Virus record (IMG/VR): IMGVR_UViG_3300043410_001892
Location: 119,145 to 183,144 of that record
Strand: one strand, 5' to 3'
Origin: a virus
Length of the DNA stretch: 64,000 nt
Position 1 is the first letter of the stretch. Each line of letters opens with the position of its first letter. Positions 2,098 to 17,543 of this stretch are shown here, one piece after another. Position numbers and translations under genes: made by a program. The notes beneath the pieces are model-generated. The model made no database searches. It saw only the letters and a program-made list of their open reading frames with translations, and had not been told where the DNA came from.

Positions 2098-2724
2098 CTA
2101 TTGGAGTCCGTTTATTATATTTAATAAACTTTCTTTAAGGTATTTTTGCGCCTTTGGATCACCTCTTACCTCTTCCGCTAAACGAATTGAATTAAGACCA
2201 CCTTTACTATTCATTAAGTGTTCGTAGATTGGGGTAGGATAAGCTCCTGGTGCACTTGGTTGAGCTACCATATCAACTGTGATAATCTCAAAATCTGATA
2301 CTTCACCGGATCCGGAATCACTAACATTGCCAGATCCGCGTGAGCTAACGCCAAGTTTCACACCACTTTCTAACATGGTTTTAATTAGTTGACCCATTGG
2401 TGTTGGTAAAATTTTAAGTTTACCATAACCATTTGGACCTTCCATCCACATGTTAGTTATCATATGTGAAACTCGGTCTAAATTAATTTTTAGATCATCT
2501 GGGTGATCTACTTCTCCTAGTACAGAATAACCATTTTGAATTTGATCGTTGAGGGTCTTAACAGCCTTGCTAATCTCACTCACAGGGTACACACGTTGAT
2601 TTGCGTTTCGGATGCCACCTTGTATACAGATACCGCTCATATACAAGTTTTTTCCTTCCTTATCGTCAGATTCAACGATCATTTGCGCTTCGTTGAAGCT
2701 AAGGTTTTCTCGGAGATGTAACAT
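2098..2724 (-). CDS. 21: Prohead core protease gp21
   Basis: A 208-residue serine protease of the T4 gp21/herpesvirus-assemblin type that degrades the scaffold and trims head proteins inside the prohead. The active-site region is visible: VLGEVDHPDD with H74, and KLGVSSRGSG with the candidate nucleophile at S127 or S128. Length agrees with T4 gp21 (about 212 residues). The C-terminal part contains VAQPSAPGAYPTPIYEH, typical of the family. Start is ATG 2724, three codons after the upstream stop; the ribosome site is weak, so translational coupling with the upstream acidic protein is likely. Its presence gives a rationale for searching the phage for L-x-E cleaved capsid-targeted proteins. Confidence 0.95.
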   Translation of the reverse strand: MLHLRENLSFNEAQMIVESDDKEGKNLYMSGICIQGGIRNANQRVYPVSEISKAVKTLNDQIQNGYSVLGEVDHPDDLKINLDRVSHMITNMWMEGPNGYGKLKILPTPMGQLIKTMLESGVKLGVSSRGSGNVSDSGSGEVSDFEIITVDMVAQPSAPGAYPTPIYEHLMNSKGGLNSIRLAEEVRGDPKAQKYLKESLLNIINGLQ

Positions 2725-10708: not shown

Positions 10709-11452
10709 TTAGTAAATTAAAAATCCATTCTTATCTCTATGTAACCCTTGTGGAGTATACTCATAATCTGGATCAGCAATTCTTGGAGTCATGTAATCAT
10801 TTTGTGAATTTGGTTTTGTAGGATCAACTGGTGTAGGCGCAGGGGTTGCTGTTTGAGTAGCCTGTGGTGCTGGTTGATCAGGCACTTGTTTTTTATCTTG
10901 ATTAACAGCTTCTTGAATTGTATTATGTAACCAATCAATAGCAATTGTTCCGTATCTACCCATGTCTTTAAGAATACTTACTGATATAAGTGATGCAAGT
11001 GCCTCTGTACCTTCTTTGGTACGTAATTGCTGCATTAAATATATTCTCGCACCTTGGCTTAATATTTTGTACATACTAGCAATTAGTGGACCTACAACTG
11101 GGATAATACTAATAAATCTTATGAATACTACATCTGTTAGAAATGAACCAACTGCAGCTACTAAGCCAACTCCAAGCTTGGCCATCATCTCACCTGCTTT
11201 TGCAGATCGATATTCATTAAATTGTTGTTGTGTTGCGACCCCTGATTTCAATGCTTCATCTGCTTGATTCATTTGAGTAAGATAATCAATTACAGGAGAT
11301 AATAACGATGCTAATCCTAACCAACCAAGAGCTGTTTTAAAAGAGTTAAAGCCAGCTTTAACTCTAGATCCTCCATTAATATTAATAGTGGGCGGAGCAT
11401 CTGCTTCATTTAAATGTGTGTGGCGTTTAGCTGTTATCTCTCTGACTTTCAT
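10709..11452 (-). CDS. Membrane-associated protein with capsid-targeting-like N-terminus
   Basis: A 247-residue protein of unknown family. Residues 38-58 and about 88-131 form hydrophobic helices (GVGLVAAVGSFLTDVVFIRF and IISIIPVVGPLIASMYKIL-like stretches), so it probably inserts into a membrane; the C-terminus is a Pro/Thr/Ala/Gln linker followed by a polar tail. The first 16 residues, MKVREITAKRHTHLNE, followed by Ala, resemble T4 capsid-targeting sequences (MKTYQEFIAE, then Ala) cut by gp21 after L/I-x-E. If so it would be packaged in the head and ejected with DNA. An AATAAATA late promoter (11506-11499) and ATAAAAGGAT ribosome site precede ATG 11452. Function otherwise unknown. Confidence 0.75.
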   Translation of the reverse strand: MKVREITAKRHTHLNEADAPPTININGGSRVKAGFNSFKTALGWLGLASLLSPVIDYLTQMNQADEALKSGVATQQQFNEYRSAKAGEMMAKLGVGLVAAVGSFLTDVVFIRFISIIPVVGPLIASMYKILSQGARIYLMQQLRTKEGTEALASLISVSILKDMGRYGTIAIDWLHNTIQEAVNQDKKQVPDQPAPQATQTATPAPTPVDPTKPNSQNDYMTPRIADPDYEYTPQGLHRDKNGFLIY

Positions 11453-12130: not shown

Positions 12131-12559
12131 TTAAATCTGGTTGCAATTACGAGCAGCAGATTCAGCTAATGTATTAGCACGTTCGTTTCCTGGATTACCA
12201 GAATGTCCTTTTACCCAAGCCCATTCAATTGTATGAGGAGCTGCAGCAATTTCTAATTGAAACCATAAGTCTTTATTCAAGTAGTCTTTGCGATTAGTTT
12301 TTTTCCAATTAGGAAACCATTGGGTAAAGCCGTCGATGAGATATTTTGAATCTGAATATAATTTAACATTACATGGTCTTTTTAAACGCGAAAGTGCTTC
12401 AATTGCAGCTTGCATTTCCATGCGATTATTAGTAGTTAGTGGATCATGTCCACTAAATTCTTTAATTACATCTTTATATTGCATGGTAATTCCCCATCCG
12501 CCTTTACCTGGATTTGGTACACATGCGCCGTCTGTATAAATTATTACGAGTTCTTCCAT
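12131..12559 (-). CDS. rnhA: Ribonuclease HI
   Basis: A 142-residue RNase HI, which cuts the RNA strand of RNA-DNA hybrids and so can remove primers. The fold's markers are clear: IYTDGACVPNPGKGGWG with D10, TNNRMEMQAAIEAL with E48, LYSDSKYLIDGF with D70 and WVKGHSGNPGNERAN with H119. The fourth carboxylate, Asp in the usual NERxD motif (D134 of E. coli), is Asn129 here. The corresponding D-to-N change in the E. coli enzyme is known to keep activity, so it is probably functional. A sigma-70 promoter (12666-12638) and a GATAAATA octamer (12608-12601) both lie upstream. T4-like phages generally use an unrelated RNase H (the FEN-type exonuclease, also present at 63149), so this one may be of cellular origin. 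Confidence 0.94.
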   Translation of the reverse strand: MEELVIIYTDGACVPNPGKGGWGITMQYKDVIKEFSGHDPLTTNNRMEMQAAIEALSRLKRPCNVKLYSDSKYLIDGFTQWFPNWKKTNRKDYLNKDLWFQLEIAAAPHTIEWAWVKGHSGNPGNERANTLAESAARNCNQI

Positions 12560-12666: not shown

Positions 12667-12711
12667 CTGCTATTATTGCCAAAGGTAAATATACACAATA
12701 TAGGAACACAT

Positions 12712-13710
12712 ATGAGAGTTATAGATATTATGTTAAATGAAGAGGTAAAAGGATATGCAGTAGCAGTTGAAAATGCTCACGCTTGGATTGAACGACTTAA
12801 ACAATTTATGAACCCCAACGATCCTCAACGACCATTTGTATTAAGAAAAAATGTTAATGTTGTATATGAGTTAACAGCTGACAAATATGATGCTAATCAA
12901 CGTAACGAGCAAGAGATAATATTAGAAGCATATGACTTAATTGCTGCCGCAATTCAAACAGGTGATCATTTGCAAATGTCAGCAGCAACAACAAGACTTA
13001 GTCGAAAACTTAAAGAATATTCTAATCGAGAAGTTACTAGAATTAGAAAAGAGTCAGGAGTTCGTACAACAAAGAAAGCAGACCGAATTTCATTACCTGA
13101 TCAAATAGCAAATGTAATTGATTTTATTAATTCTCCAAATAATCGACGATTAGATAATCGATATACGTATGAGAGATCATTTATGTCGCTTGCAGATAAA
13201 CTGACATTAGAAAAATGGATTAAAGATACTTATAAGACCGATAAACTAAAACTACAAGCACTTGTTAATTGGTTGAAAGATAAAGAAACTCGAACAGCAG
13301 CACCAAAAGAACTGGAAAACACTCACGGTGAATTGCCAGAGGATTTTGATCCACAAAATCCTCTGCATGTGTATTGGAAAAATATAGTAGATACAACAAG
13401 ATGGAGAGGCGATAATGTGGAAAATAGTAAAACACAGTATACAATGTCTTATAAAGAGCTATGGCAGATTATAACTGAACAAGATTGGAAGTGCTATTTA
13501 ACTAATATTCCAATGTTAGGGATTACAAGCCATGAAAATTCTATAAGCATAGATAGAAAAGATTCAACTGTAGGTTATATTTCTGGTAATGTTGCATTCT
13601 GTTGTTATCGAGCAAATATAATAAAAGGAACGTTAACAGTTAACGAATTAGTTGCAGTGTGTAAACAGATTCTAATACATAAAAATATAATTTCAAAGGA
13701 ATTAAAATGA
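12712..13710 (+). CDS. HNH-type nuclease-like protein 1, capsid-targeting-like N-terminus
   Basis: ATG 12712 is chosen since AGGA lies 7 nt upstream; the longer frame opens only with TTG at 12676. The 332-residue product begins MRVIDIMLNE then E, resembling a capsid-targeting peptide with an L-x-E cleavage site. The middle is charged and helical with no recognised domain. The C-terminal 80 residues carry an HNH-like pattern: WKCYLTNIPM, SISIDRKDSTVGYISGNVAF and YRANIIKG. The His usually placed before the I-D of such enzymes is replaced (S-I-D), so catalysis is uncertain. It overlaps the following HNH gene by 4 bp (ATGA). It could be a homing-type endonuclease, but the N-terminus argues for a packaged, ejected protein. 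Confidence 0.75.
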   Translation: MRVIDIMLNEEVKGYAVAVENAHAWIERLKQFMNPNDPQRPFVLRKNVNVVYELTADKYDANQRNEQEIILEAYDLIAAAIQTGDHLQMSAATTRLSRKLKEYSNREVTRIRKESGVRTTKKADRISLPDQIANVIDFINSPNNRRLDNRYTYERSFMSLADKLTLEKWIKDTYKTDKLKLQALVNWLKDKETRTAAPKELENTHGELPEDFDPQNPLHVYWKNIVDTTRWRGDNVENSKTQYTMSYKELWQIITEQDWKCYLTNIPMLGITSHENSISIDRKDSTVGYISGNVAFCCYRANIIKGTLTVNELVAVCKQILIHKNIISKELK

Positions 13711-14651
13711 AAGCAACCGAAATTTTAGAACAGCTAGATAATCGAGGTAGGTACCCAGGTGAAGCAGCAACAAATGGACTAACAATACACACCAGAGTAG
13801 AAAATATAATGAATCAATCAAAAAAATTGCTGAATTTATATAGACCGTATCTAGTTCGTGGAGAAATTAAAAATTTGGTACAAATATATAAAATTGCTTC
13901 TAAAGAATTTAAAAACCCAACAGATTTAGATTATGCAACAATATTAGTAACATCAAACGAACTTAGACCGTATGTTAAACGACTTGCTAGTAAAATGAAA
14001 GAAGCCATAAAAAATCCATCACCTGAAGAGTTTAAATTAGCTTCTATAAGTAATCATAAAGTGTTTGGAGGATGGCCAATTGAAGATATTAAATATGATT
14101 TGAATAGTATAGCAAGAACTCGACCTGATTTAAGCGATGCAGTAAATAACTTAATACAAGATGTTGAGGGGTATAATCAAAATAAGAGGCTTCGTGGTGA
14201 AGTAACATTTAATACAGATTATTCTGATAACATTGAAGATGCAGTAACTCGACGATATAATAATTCAAGAGTAAGAAACAAAAAAGGAAAATTAACAAAT
14301 CCTAAACGAAAAAAAATAACTATATCTACTAATTATGCAATTGAAATTGCTGCAAATCAACATTACACATGTGCGTTATCAGGAATTCCAATGACAGCAG
14401 TTCAAGGTCCAAGTCAACTTAGTATTGATCGAATTAGCTCTAAACATGGATATCATCGCGGCAATGTTCAATTTTTATTAGCTCGAGTTAATATGATGAA
14501 AGGTAATTTATCTGAGAATAAATTTTTAGATTGGTGTTTGCAGATATACAAAAACAATTCTAATATACCGGTTACTAACTCTGATTTAGCTGCGGCACTT
14601 GCTAGACCAGTATTGTCTAATAACAATACTACTTCAAACACAGATCCTTAA
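13707..14651 (+). CDS. HNH-type nuclease-like protein 2, capsid-targeting-like N-terminus
   Basis: A 314-residue protein starting MKATEILEQLDNRG at ATG 13707, overlapping the previous stop (ATGA) with AAGGA as ribosome site, so the two genes are co-translated. The C-terminal region repeats the partner's layout: HYTCALSGIPM, then LSIDRISSKHGYHRGNVQFL and RVNMMKGNLSENKF, an HNH/treble-clef pattern with N in GNV and in VNMMK. The central region differs from the partner. ILE at residues 6-8 could be a gp21-type cleavage site. The 3' end overlaps the convergent PD-(D/E)XK gene by 23 bp. Likely a diverged duplicate of protein 1. Confidence 0.78.
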   Translation: MKATEILEQLDNRGRYPGEAATNGLTIHTRVENIMNQSKKLLNLYRPYLVRGEIKNLVQIYKIASKEFKNPTDLDYATILVTSNELRPYVKRLASKMKEAIKNPSPEEFKLASISNHKVFGGWPIEDIKYDLNSIARTRPDLSDAVNNLIQDVEGYNQNKRLRGEVTFNTDYSDNIEDAVTRRYNNSRVRNKKGKLTNPKRKKITISTNYAIEIAANQHYTCALSGIPMTAVQGPSQLSIDRISSKHGYHRGNVQFLLARVNMMKGNLSENKFLDWCLQIYKNNSNIPVTNSDLAAALARPVLSNNNTTSNTDP

Positions 14652-15156: not shown

Positions 15157-15480
15157 TTAATTTTTATGTCTAATTTTTAATTTATTTATTGGTTCAAGTA
15201 TGCCAGCTTCTTCTTTTTGAGCACGTTCTTTAATCATAGCAATTGCTCGTTTACTTGGAATTTTTGGAGAGAAATGTGTGTATCTCCAATCTTGTACCAC
15301 TAATCTTTGATCGGTACAAAGATTAGTTAGTTGTATTCCAATCTTTTTTAACAACATTAATTCTTTTCGTAAATCAACACAAGTTTGTGAATTTTGTATT
15401 GTAACCCAGTTATTATGAGCTATAAAATAGTCATTAAATACTTTCATTATTTCATCGTGTAATTCTTCATTTGGTAACAT
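15157..15480 (-). CDS. Small hypothetical protein
   Basis: A 107-residue helical, basic protein (LHDEIMKVFNDYFIAHNNWV; RKELMLLKKIGIQLTNLCTD; C-terminal KLKIRHKN). No family recognised and no membrane segment. ATG 15480 overlaps the TAA of the 687-residue gene (TAATG) and a GGAGGT ribosome site lies inside that gene's last codons, so it is in the same operon, followed by the PD-(D/E)XK gene. Confidence 0.75.
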   Translation of the reverse strand: MLPNEELHDEIMKVFNDYFIAHNNWVTIQNSQTCVDLRKELMLLKKIGIQLTNLCTDQRLVVQDWRYTHFSPKIPSKRAIAMIKERAQKEEAGILEPINKLKIRHKN

Positions 15481-17543
15481 TATTGACCTCCGTAAGCTAA
15501 TTCTCTTAATTTTTCTTCTTCTTCATTTGTTAGCAATTTTAGGTTTATAAAATTAAATGCTGTTGGATTAGATTTAATTGCAGCTTTACATAACTGGAAA
15601 TTTTTGAAATTATCGTTTATCCATTTTAAGTTATAACCGTCTATTGCTACTGATTGATGCGCGAGTTGTTCGTACTGATCAGCTGTAACATAGCCGGCAT
15701 CTATTGGCAAAGATTCACCATCGGCAACAGGAGTAATATGTTGTAATGAAGCTCCGTTGGCGATTGCTTTTGATGCAATTTTAAATGTTTGAATACCACC
15801 TTTAAAGAAGTTATGATCAATCAATACATCAAGAGTATTAAGACTTCCTCTAGCACCAGCTGCAGACATACATAAGTTAAATGCTTGTTCATCTGTAAAA
15901 CTATATCGATTGATAAATTCGTCTATTAAAAATGGAGCTGTTTTTAATGCAATAATTGCTAATTCGTATAATTCGTCCGGTTTAACAACATCATCGAGTG
16001 ACCAACTAGTTCCACTTGGATCAATTATGTTACCGTCAACTGACGCAGCAGTTTTTAACTGTTCAAAGGTTAGATAGTCATCTACTAAATCACCTCTCAA
16101 GTATTGTACTATATGAGGGTTAGATTCAACTGCTAATCCTAGTAACTTCCCTATATCTTGATGATTTAGTATACCTATATTTTCGATATCTGCAAATGCA
16201 TAGCTAGGATCTGATGAATTTGCTACTATTTTTACACAGATATCTAAATCGATAAATTGAAGATCAAATGAATCGAGATCCCAATTATTTCCAGATTCGA
16301 ATGCAGCTTTAACTAACTCTTTGTAGTGTTTATAATGAGACGGAATATGCTCAAATATATCGTAACGTCGATTGTTATAAACTGCTTCTTTTAGTATTTC
16401 AAAATCATTTCTAACTTTTGCACTTGCAAAATTAAGTAGTTCTGGATATGCTCCAATACGACGTCCAACACGTTGTTTGTAATTTTGGATAGTGTCAGGT
16501 GCATAAATTATCAAATCGTTATTTTGTTCAATTGCGTTTTCCCAAGCGTCATTAGACAGATCAATATCTCCTTCTTCGGTTATTAGTGAACCTATACCGG
16601 GAGATTTATCAAGTGCAACTGATCTAAATCTTTCATTAGCTAACACGTTCTTTGGCGCTCTTAAGAAGTCAATTGGATATTTTTCAATTTGATCGTCAAT
16701 TAGTTTAGGTTTAGTAGCTATGATTTGATTGAGCATATTATTTGGTAAATCAAATACAGAAAAGTCAGTTGCTGGTAACCATGAGTCTTCTCCGATTCCA
16801 TTTACCACTGGACTTAATAATAATGCTAATATATCTGGATAGAATTTGCTACTAGGTTTGCTATTTTTAGGACCTTTTGTTTGATATAACTCATGAGTAT
16901 TTGGATTCCATTCAAATGTTAGCATAGGTTGCGGAGTTGAAGTTCTTAAACTTAACAAGTTATTTTCAGGGAATTGACAAGTACCGCAATGTCCCATAAA
17001 CTTTGATTCTGGGTTGTGTGAATTATAAGGTAAATGCCACCATGTGTTGTTAGTGCTTGGTACTTGCAATACAGGATGGTCGCCTTCTAATATTTCTATT
17101 GGTTTTGCGATTTTTCTTGCAGCTTCATTATCTTTAAATATTTGTTCTTCTGCTTTACCAAATTCTGCTATTACGTTGGTTACATTTGTACCTGGGCGAA
17201 TTGCATTTACTACATCTATTATTCTTTTATTTGTAGCAAATTCAGTAGCAAGCCAATGTGATAGGGAATATTCAACTGATCCTAATGAATCAAATATAGT
17301 TGGGTCATTAAGCCATGCAGGTGGGAGTAAATTTGCTAACGCCTCTTGATTTCTATTTAAACCAGCTTCTAATATACCTAAATACCAAAGTATAGCTTGG
17401 TTTTTTTTCAAATAAGTTGCAGCCCATTGAACTTTCTGATCAATTGCTGCAGCGTCATCAGGAAACGAGGTTTTAAGTTTGTTAACCTTGCTTTGATAAT
17501 TTTCAAATAAATTGATTGATTCGTATAATTCTCTTAATCGCAT
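15480..17543 (-). CDS. 687-aa protein with MGHCG/SLR motif and repeat-like C-terminus
   Basis: Function not recognised. The N-terminus MRLRELYESINLFE, then N, resembles a capsid-targeting peptide with L-x-E cleavage. Around residues 185-240 is KFMGHCGTCQFPENNLLSLR, then PMLTFEW and YQTKGPKNSKPS. This order (HCG..., SLR, TFE, Q-KG-N-KP) resembles a motif seen in PcfJ-like and other large phage proteins, from memory only. The C-terminal half contains short helical units (NDFEILKEAVYNNRRYDIFE; KHYKELVKAAFESGNNWDLD) reminiscent of DUF4116-type repeats. RBS AGGA precedes ATG 17543. A degenerate late octamer (ACTAAATA) lies upstream. It is separated from gp46 by a hairpin, heading its own three-gene operon. 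Confidence 0.72.
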   Translation of the reverse strand: MRLRELYESINLFENYQSKVNKLKTSFPDDAAAIDQKVQWAATYLKKNQAILWYLGILEAGLNRNQEALANLLPPAWLNDPTIFDSLGSVEYSLSHWLATEFATNKRIIDVVNAIRPGTNVTNVIAEFGKAEEQIFKDNEAARKIAKPIEILEGDHPVLQVPSTNNTWWHLPYNSHNPESKFMGHCGTCQFPENNLLSLRTSTPQPMLTFEWNPNTHELYQTKGPKNSKPSSKFYPDILALLLSPVVNGIGEDSWLPATDFSVFDLPNNMLNQIIATKPKLIDDQIEKYPIDFLRAPKNVLANERFRSVALDKSPGIGSLITEEGDIDLSNDAWENAIEQNNDLIIYAPDTIQNYKQRVGRRIGAYPELLNFASAKVRNDFEILKEAVYNNRRYDIFEHIPSHYKHYKELVKAAFESGNNWDLDSFDLQFIDLDICVKIVANSSDPSYAFADIENIGILNHQDIGKLLGLAVESNPHIVQYLRGDLVDDYLTFEQLKTAASVDGNIIDPSGTSWSLDDVVKPDELYELAIIALKTAPFLIDEFINRYSFTDEQAFNLCMSAAGARGSLNTLDVLIDHNFFKGGIQTFKIASKAIANGASLQHITPVADGESLPIDAGYVTADQYEQLAHQSVAIDGYNLKWINDNFKNFQLCKAAIKSNPTAFNFINLKLLTNEEEEKLRELAYGGQ

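Follow-up and report, generated by a model that had tools for sequence, protein, structure and literature searches.

A tandem pair of genes with PacI-type HNH domains and capsid-targeting-like leaders at an exchangeable locus of a T4-like jumbo phage

The window analyzed here (64,000 nucleotides, positions 119,145 to 183,144 of the IMG/VR record IMGVR_UViG_3300043410_001892) lies in a source record of 372,173 bases from a T4-like jumbo phage. Its portal and late sigma factor relate this phage to GAP32, CBB, PA5oct, and Atu_ph07 among the T4-like jumbo phages, and it encodes gp23, gp20, and a Peptidase_S77 (gp21-type) prohead protease. We focused on two genes, whose products are referred to below as protein 1 and protein 2 (Table 1). 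The genes overlap by ATGA (13707-13710), which agrees with the sequence-only reading of the locus that had described them as co-translated. The best start of gene 1 is the ATG at 12712; an in-frame TTG is found 36 nt upstream, at 12676. Neither protein matched a nuclease family in Pfam, NCBIfam, or PADLOC, and tblastn searches of phage records with both proteins and with the N-terminal part of one allele returned essentially the HNH region alone or no match.

Table 1. Features of the gene pair and its surroundings, in window coordinates; a slash marks the cleavage point within a logo.
Feature	Position	Strand	Basis or remark
Gene 1, 332 aa: leader, variable middle, C-terminal PacI-type HNH domain	12712..13710	+	ORF, PHROG, AlphaFold2
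Gene 2, 314 aa: leader, variable middle, C-terminal PacI-type HNH domain	13707..14651	+	ORF, PHROG, AlphaFold2
Leader of gene 1: MRVIDIMLNE, cleavage logo LNE/E	12712..12741	+	Weak alone; leader codons kept in three other alleles
Leader of gene 2: MKATEILEQ, cleavage logo ILE/Q	13707..13733	+	PWM score; missing from L024 and L027 second genes
HNH core of protein 1: residues 278-307; D281, R282, Y289, N302	13543..13632	+	Alignment, AlphaFold2, PacI profile
HNH core of protein 2: residues 237-265; D241, R242, Y249, N262	14415..14501	+	Alignment, AlphaFold2, PacI profile
TAAATA late-promoter-like element, 26 nt before gene 1	12686..12691	+	Present in all four alleles
RNase H, left flank of variable site	12131..12559	-	Pfam RNase_H 2.7e-43; 80-83% identity in close relatives
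PDDEXK_15 endonuclease, right flank; cassette abuts its last codons	14629..15147	-	Pfam 5.3e-25; empty-site comparison
gp21-type prohead protease, would trim tags	2098..2724	-	Pfam Peptidase_S77 4.1e-25
Tagged gene across RNase H, MKVREIT...LNE/A	10709..11452	-	Leader match; fast-diverging
Tagged DUF4116 protein, MRLRELYE/S	15480..17543	-	Pfam, leader match

The two proteins are dissimilar outside of their C-terminal domains, with unrelated middles, whereas the C-termini are 34.5% identical over about 110 amino acids (E-values of 3e-10 to 5e-10). Both proteins also match the endonuclease families PHROG 3322 (1e-15 and 6e-16), PHROG 1035, and PHROG 3118. Thus, the earlier description of similar HNH-like C-termini behind different middles was correct. 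Structure prediction of both C-termini, which had been proposed as a check, was carried out with AlphaFold2 on 37-39 sequences. The models contain a confident beta-beta-alpha core (block pLDDT about 80-95), with two strands and a helix at residues 278-282, 294-298, and 299-307 of protein 1 and at residues 237-242, 254-258, and 259-265 of protein 2, while the middles were modeled poorly. HNH nucleases ranked first in Foldseek searches of the PDB, at E-values above 0.1: Cas9 HNH for protein 1, and PacI, Gme HNH, and Cas9 HNH for protein 2. Among predicted viral structures, we found 48 fold matches below 0.001, headed by a KBNP1711 protein; most of them are unnamed, and the named ones include an HNH endonuclease and an anti-sigma factor. 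Judged by the models and by the PDB ranking, both domains adopt the bba-metal fold. A tree of the HNH domains gave no answer as to whether the first genes and the second genes each have one origin.

It had been noted earlier that the usual catalytic His is not evident in protein 1. The residue is indeed absent; however, this is not a peculiarity of protein 1, as Arg occupies the position in eight of eight HNH domains from four alleles, protein 2 included. Homologues collected without forcing the motif carry R, Q, or K there and never H, and the catalytic His (DH or DHDH) of canonical HNH and endonuclease VII (DHHRN) enzymes is missing. The eight domains share instead an invariant set of S-x-D-R, Y, GN, F, N, K, and C. 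The best PDB match of a profile of 39 sequences was PacI, aligned on VDRSDSFEGYSPQN...N..K, with an E-value (0.025) that is weak taken alone and that we count against our main interpretation. The PacI-type motif D-R-x-D ... G-Y ... N ... N..K is present, with L024a and L027a lacking the G before the Y.

The HNH restriction enzyme PacI is active, with Asp and Asn as its metal ligands and Tyr as its general base (PMC4081073). Read off the alignment, the tyrosine of the GY motif would be the counterpart of this base, and the putative metal ligands and base would be D281/N302/Y289 in protein 1 and D241/N262/Y249 in protein 2. In other nucleases, the His residues are indispensable: T4 endonuclease VII requires its DHDH (PMC6083498), and the H82R change abolishes the activity of PhiPA3 gp210 (PMC11620839). 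We considered whether Arg at the His position marks a dead enzyme, an idea set back by the active PacI with the same motif. Because the substitution is family-wide and PacI is active with Tyr, the absent His, as far as alignment can tell, is not special to protein 1 and does not prove that the enzyme is inactive. An analysis of palindrome avoidance in the phage genome yielded no candidate target, and the PacI site, with 19 occurrences against an expectation of 21.5, is not avoided. PacI-type HNH genes were also seen elsewhere. A third, small one lies at G000:254479-254805 (L003) and is 87% identical in the relative G001. Another, with SLDRKD as in protein 1, is found in Escherichia phage KBNP1711 (39897-40349, L340), between two annotated DNA polymerase pieces, as an inserted homing nuclease would be.

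The sequence-only reading had further attributed capsid-targeting-like starts to both proteins. In T4, the first 10 residues of IPIII are enough for targeting, and the gp21 cleavage logo is of the [LI]xE kind (PMC9026906). We found that about 24 proteins of the phage have the start M[KR]xx[ED][ILF] in common. We counted the stricter form M[KR]xxE[ILF] at 21 of 432 first ATGs, as compared to 4 of 1524 internal ATGs (p=6e-11), with the ORFs picked mechanically, so that some are perhaps not genes. An [LI]xE logo within residues 6-16 follows 17 of 24 tagged starts, as compared to 54 of 416 others (p=8e-10) and to 5 tagged starts on average when these residues are shuffled. The same pattern was observed in a relative of 372,016 bases, with 25 tagged starts, 21 of which have [LI]xE.

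For protein 2, the attribution holds well, as its start outscores every one of the 1285 internal Met positions when the matrix is derived without it. The start of protein 1 is weaker, with 1.25% of internal Mets reaching its score, which counts against packaging; its leader is, however, kept in the three other alleles. Thus, the pair shares a leader with a gp21-type logo, strong in protein 2 and, in protein 1, weak alone but conserved among alleles. Tags on both genes are a property of the window allele: L024 and L027 have untagged second genes, beginning with MSTPEKYK and MKAQAYY, next to tagged first genes, and L034 has a fused chain. We also count the untagged second genes against packaging. 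Tagged genes elsewhere in the phage include G000:276173-276415, 283625-283975, 345104-346141, 272735-273373, and 349981-350700, and the tagged cargo comprises HicA-like, ParB_N-like, peptidoglycan-binding/SLT (transglycosylase), and kinase-like proteins.

An attempt to validate the tag through CBB, a relative with virion proteomics, failed because the parts of CBB examined contain no such tag, and this too counts against packaging. In this Pectobacterium phage (L212, at about 344-355 kb of its genome), many virion proteins found by mass spectrometry start with MLPFxRxxEYGN (PMC5259590). In the Agrobacterium phage Atu_ph07 (L213, at about 39.5-53 kb of its genome), a series of genes starts with M[KR]WxQL[TN]E, and several of them also have a YRGM motif. 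They lie in a cluster with many virion proteins, 29 of its 46 gene products having been detected in virions. By analogy, this parallel tag may lend indirect support to a virion role of the leader.

The TAAATA element upstream of gene 1 is also found ahead of several structural genes, and it is overrepresented upstream of tagged genes. Two further tagged genes lie close to the pair. The one across RNase H is 25-28% identical in relatives, as compared to 60-95% for its neighbors, and is unmatched in some. The DUF4116 protein on the other side was found in just one of the relatives' loci examined; together with G000:55465-65711, it makes up a family of five large proteins that have MRLRELY-like leaders, and the DUF4116 repeats are in the window copy.

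Next, we compared the site in relatives. In close relatives, whose RNase H is 80-83% and PDDEXK 90-95% identical, the site is either empty or occupied by HNH genes only ~25-35% identical. Three further allele types were found, and IMG/VR scans revealed no alleles beyond these four: L024 and L027 have two genes each, while L034 encodes one chain of 561 aa that contains two HNH domains behind the leader MKVTDILKE. A scan of genome contigs with a neighboring structural protein gave no match, and the retrieved DNA of distant relatives (PDDEXK identity of at most 63%) contained no such HNH gene. Between alleles, identity is 88-97% in the 150 nt before gene 1 and 63-100% over codons 1-9 and falls to 28-61% in the next 90 nt; thus, the leader is kept while the cargo is exchanged, for gene 1 only. 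Synonymous divergence reaches 0.45-0.65 within the cassette, whereas the two genes flanking it show 0.06 and 0.17, and therefore the alleles have been swapped rather than diverging in place. Between L024 and L027, dN/dS is 0.25-0.39 in the HNH parts and 0.69-0.75 in the middles: the HNH part is under purifying selection, and the middle is fast-evolving. In all four alleles, the cassette consists of a pair of HNH genes or a single fusion gene, and no adjacent immunity gene of the kind that accompanies polymorphic toxins and bacteriocins was found.

Together, these data are best explained by a late, swappable locus of the internal-protein type that carries two PacI-like nucleases as its cargo, a reading to which we assign a probability of about 0.52. 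The operon would be transcribed late, alongside structural genes. Its N-terminal leader would carry protein 1, and here protein 2 as well, into the prohead core, where the gp21-type protease would trim it at [LI]xE. The two PacI-type HNH proteins would work as a pair, a view favored by the fusion of both HNH domains in the single chain of one relative, and both would enter the next cell with the phage genome. There, they may make a specific cut, chosen by the fast-evolving middles, in host, plasmid, or rival-phage DNA. Packing into the head is favored by the HNH folds, the leader, the late-type element, the gp21-type protease, and the retention of the leader while the cargo diverges; it is the interpretation that fits gene 1 best, and for gene 2 it is reasonable. 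More tentatively, the pair may form a preloaded two-subunit restriction-like nuclease with exchangeable recognition domains, delivering a first strike on host, plasmid, or rival-phage DNA before expression; in this specific form, the proposal is possible but doubtful.

The earlier suggestion that the genes are packaged rather than homing gains from the leader, the late-type element, and the gp21-type protease; it is weakened by the clean presence/absence in relatives. This distribution had been named as a test, but the site being empty or holding a diverged pair is expected of homing genes too. Free-standing homing endonucleases are accordingly the strongest rival, although we consider them rather unlikely. 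Here, a selfish cassette would cut the empty RNase H-PDDEXK site and spread by repair, with the leader incidental or borrowed from a tagged neighbor. The site is empty in nine contigs from close relatives, so that the cassette is present or absent at a fixed position among otherwise similar phages, as homing genes typically are. The HNH family is frequent as stray small phage genes, one member sits between two DNA polymerase gene pieces, and in occupied relatives the near flanks are closer (0.06-0.23 synonymous) than gp47 further off (0.31). Homing is opposed by the presence of two genes, or of one double-HNH chain, whose middles are long and evolve fast, by the late-type promoter element before gene 1, and by a leader that matches 24 other proteins and is kept while the rest diverges.

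In a second alternative, which we regard as improbable, protein 1 alone would be the packaged effector and protein 2 a co-entering partner or a cytoplasmic protein, for example, an inhibitor in the producing cell. The untagged second genes of L024 and L027 next to tagged first genes would fit such a division of labor, but in the window the tag of gene 2 is better than that of gene 1, L034 places both HNH domains in one tagged chain, and both domains have the same D-R-Y-N set. Least probable of all are packaged DNA-binding or anti-defense proteins whose His-less HNH would bind DNA or a host nuclease, in line with the T4 internal proteins of assigned function, which inhibit restriction enzymes (PMC12373910), and with the inactivating His-to-Arg change in PhiPA3 gp210 (PMC11620839), as they are opposed by the match to the motif of PacI, active with Tyr as general base (PMC4081073), and by the invariant D, Y, and N of a domain under purifying selection.

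Known systems place the proposed packaged nuclease pair in context. The T4 internal proteins IPI, IPII, and IPIII resemble it in their short N-terminal leader with a gp21-type logo, in a leader that is common while the cargo differs, and in their variable hotspot; T4 Ip1-3 have the leader alone in common and are located in a hotspot (PMC12373910). In contrast, the T4 internal proteins of known function are inhibitors of GmrSD restriction enzymes, while the pair described here is nuclease-like and exceeds 300 aa in each protein. EcoRI and staphylococcal nuclease have been brought into T4 heads and then into cells by engineered tag fusion (PMC9026906). These constructs also place a nuclease behind a capsid-targeting sequence, but they are artificial, whereas the pair would be natural. 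The behavior of the T4 Ip locus and the engineered delivery of these nucleases together led us to propose a natural internal-protein locus with a PacI-type pair.

Among nucleases, PacI shares with both domains the motif DRxDSxxGYxxxN...N..K, the Arg at the usual His position, and the bba-metal fold. It is, however, a stand-alone restriction enzyme of 142 aa, whereas here the domain belongs to a predicted nuclease, is C-terminal to a long variable region, and occurs in tagged, tandem or fused form. T4 endonuclease VII and F-CphI (DHHRN) have the same fold, and PHROG 1035 "endonuclease VII" matches both proteins, but their DHDH and essential His residues are missing here. PhiPA3 gp210 is likewise an HNH nuclease from a phage and may serve in competition with a co-infecting phage; in contrast to the pair, it is intron-borne and His-dependent, and nothing points to its packaging.

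The match to PacI accounts for the many poorly named "HNH" proteins of phages that do without the catalytic His. In the literature cited, nucleases have entered T4 heads by engineered fusion alone; sequence-specific nucleases as natural capsid cargo would, if our reading is true, represent a different use of the T4-type delivery route. The tag statistics also make it possible to list the putative ejected proteins of an uncharacterized jumbo-phage clade from sequence, 24-25 per genome, and thus what jumbo phages inject becomes directly testable.
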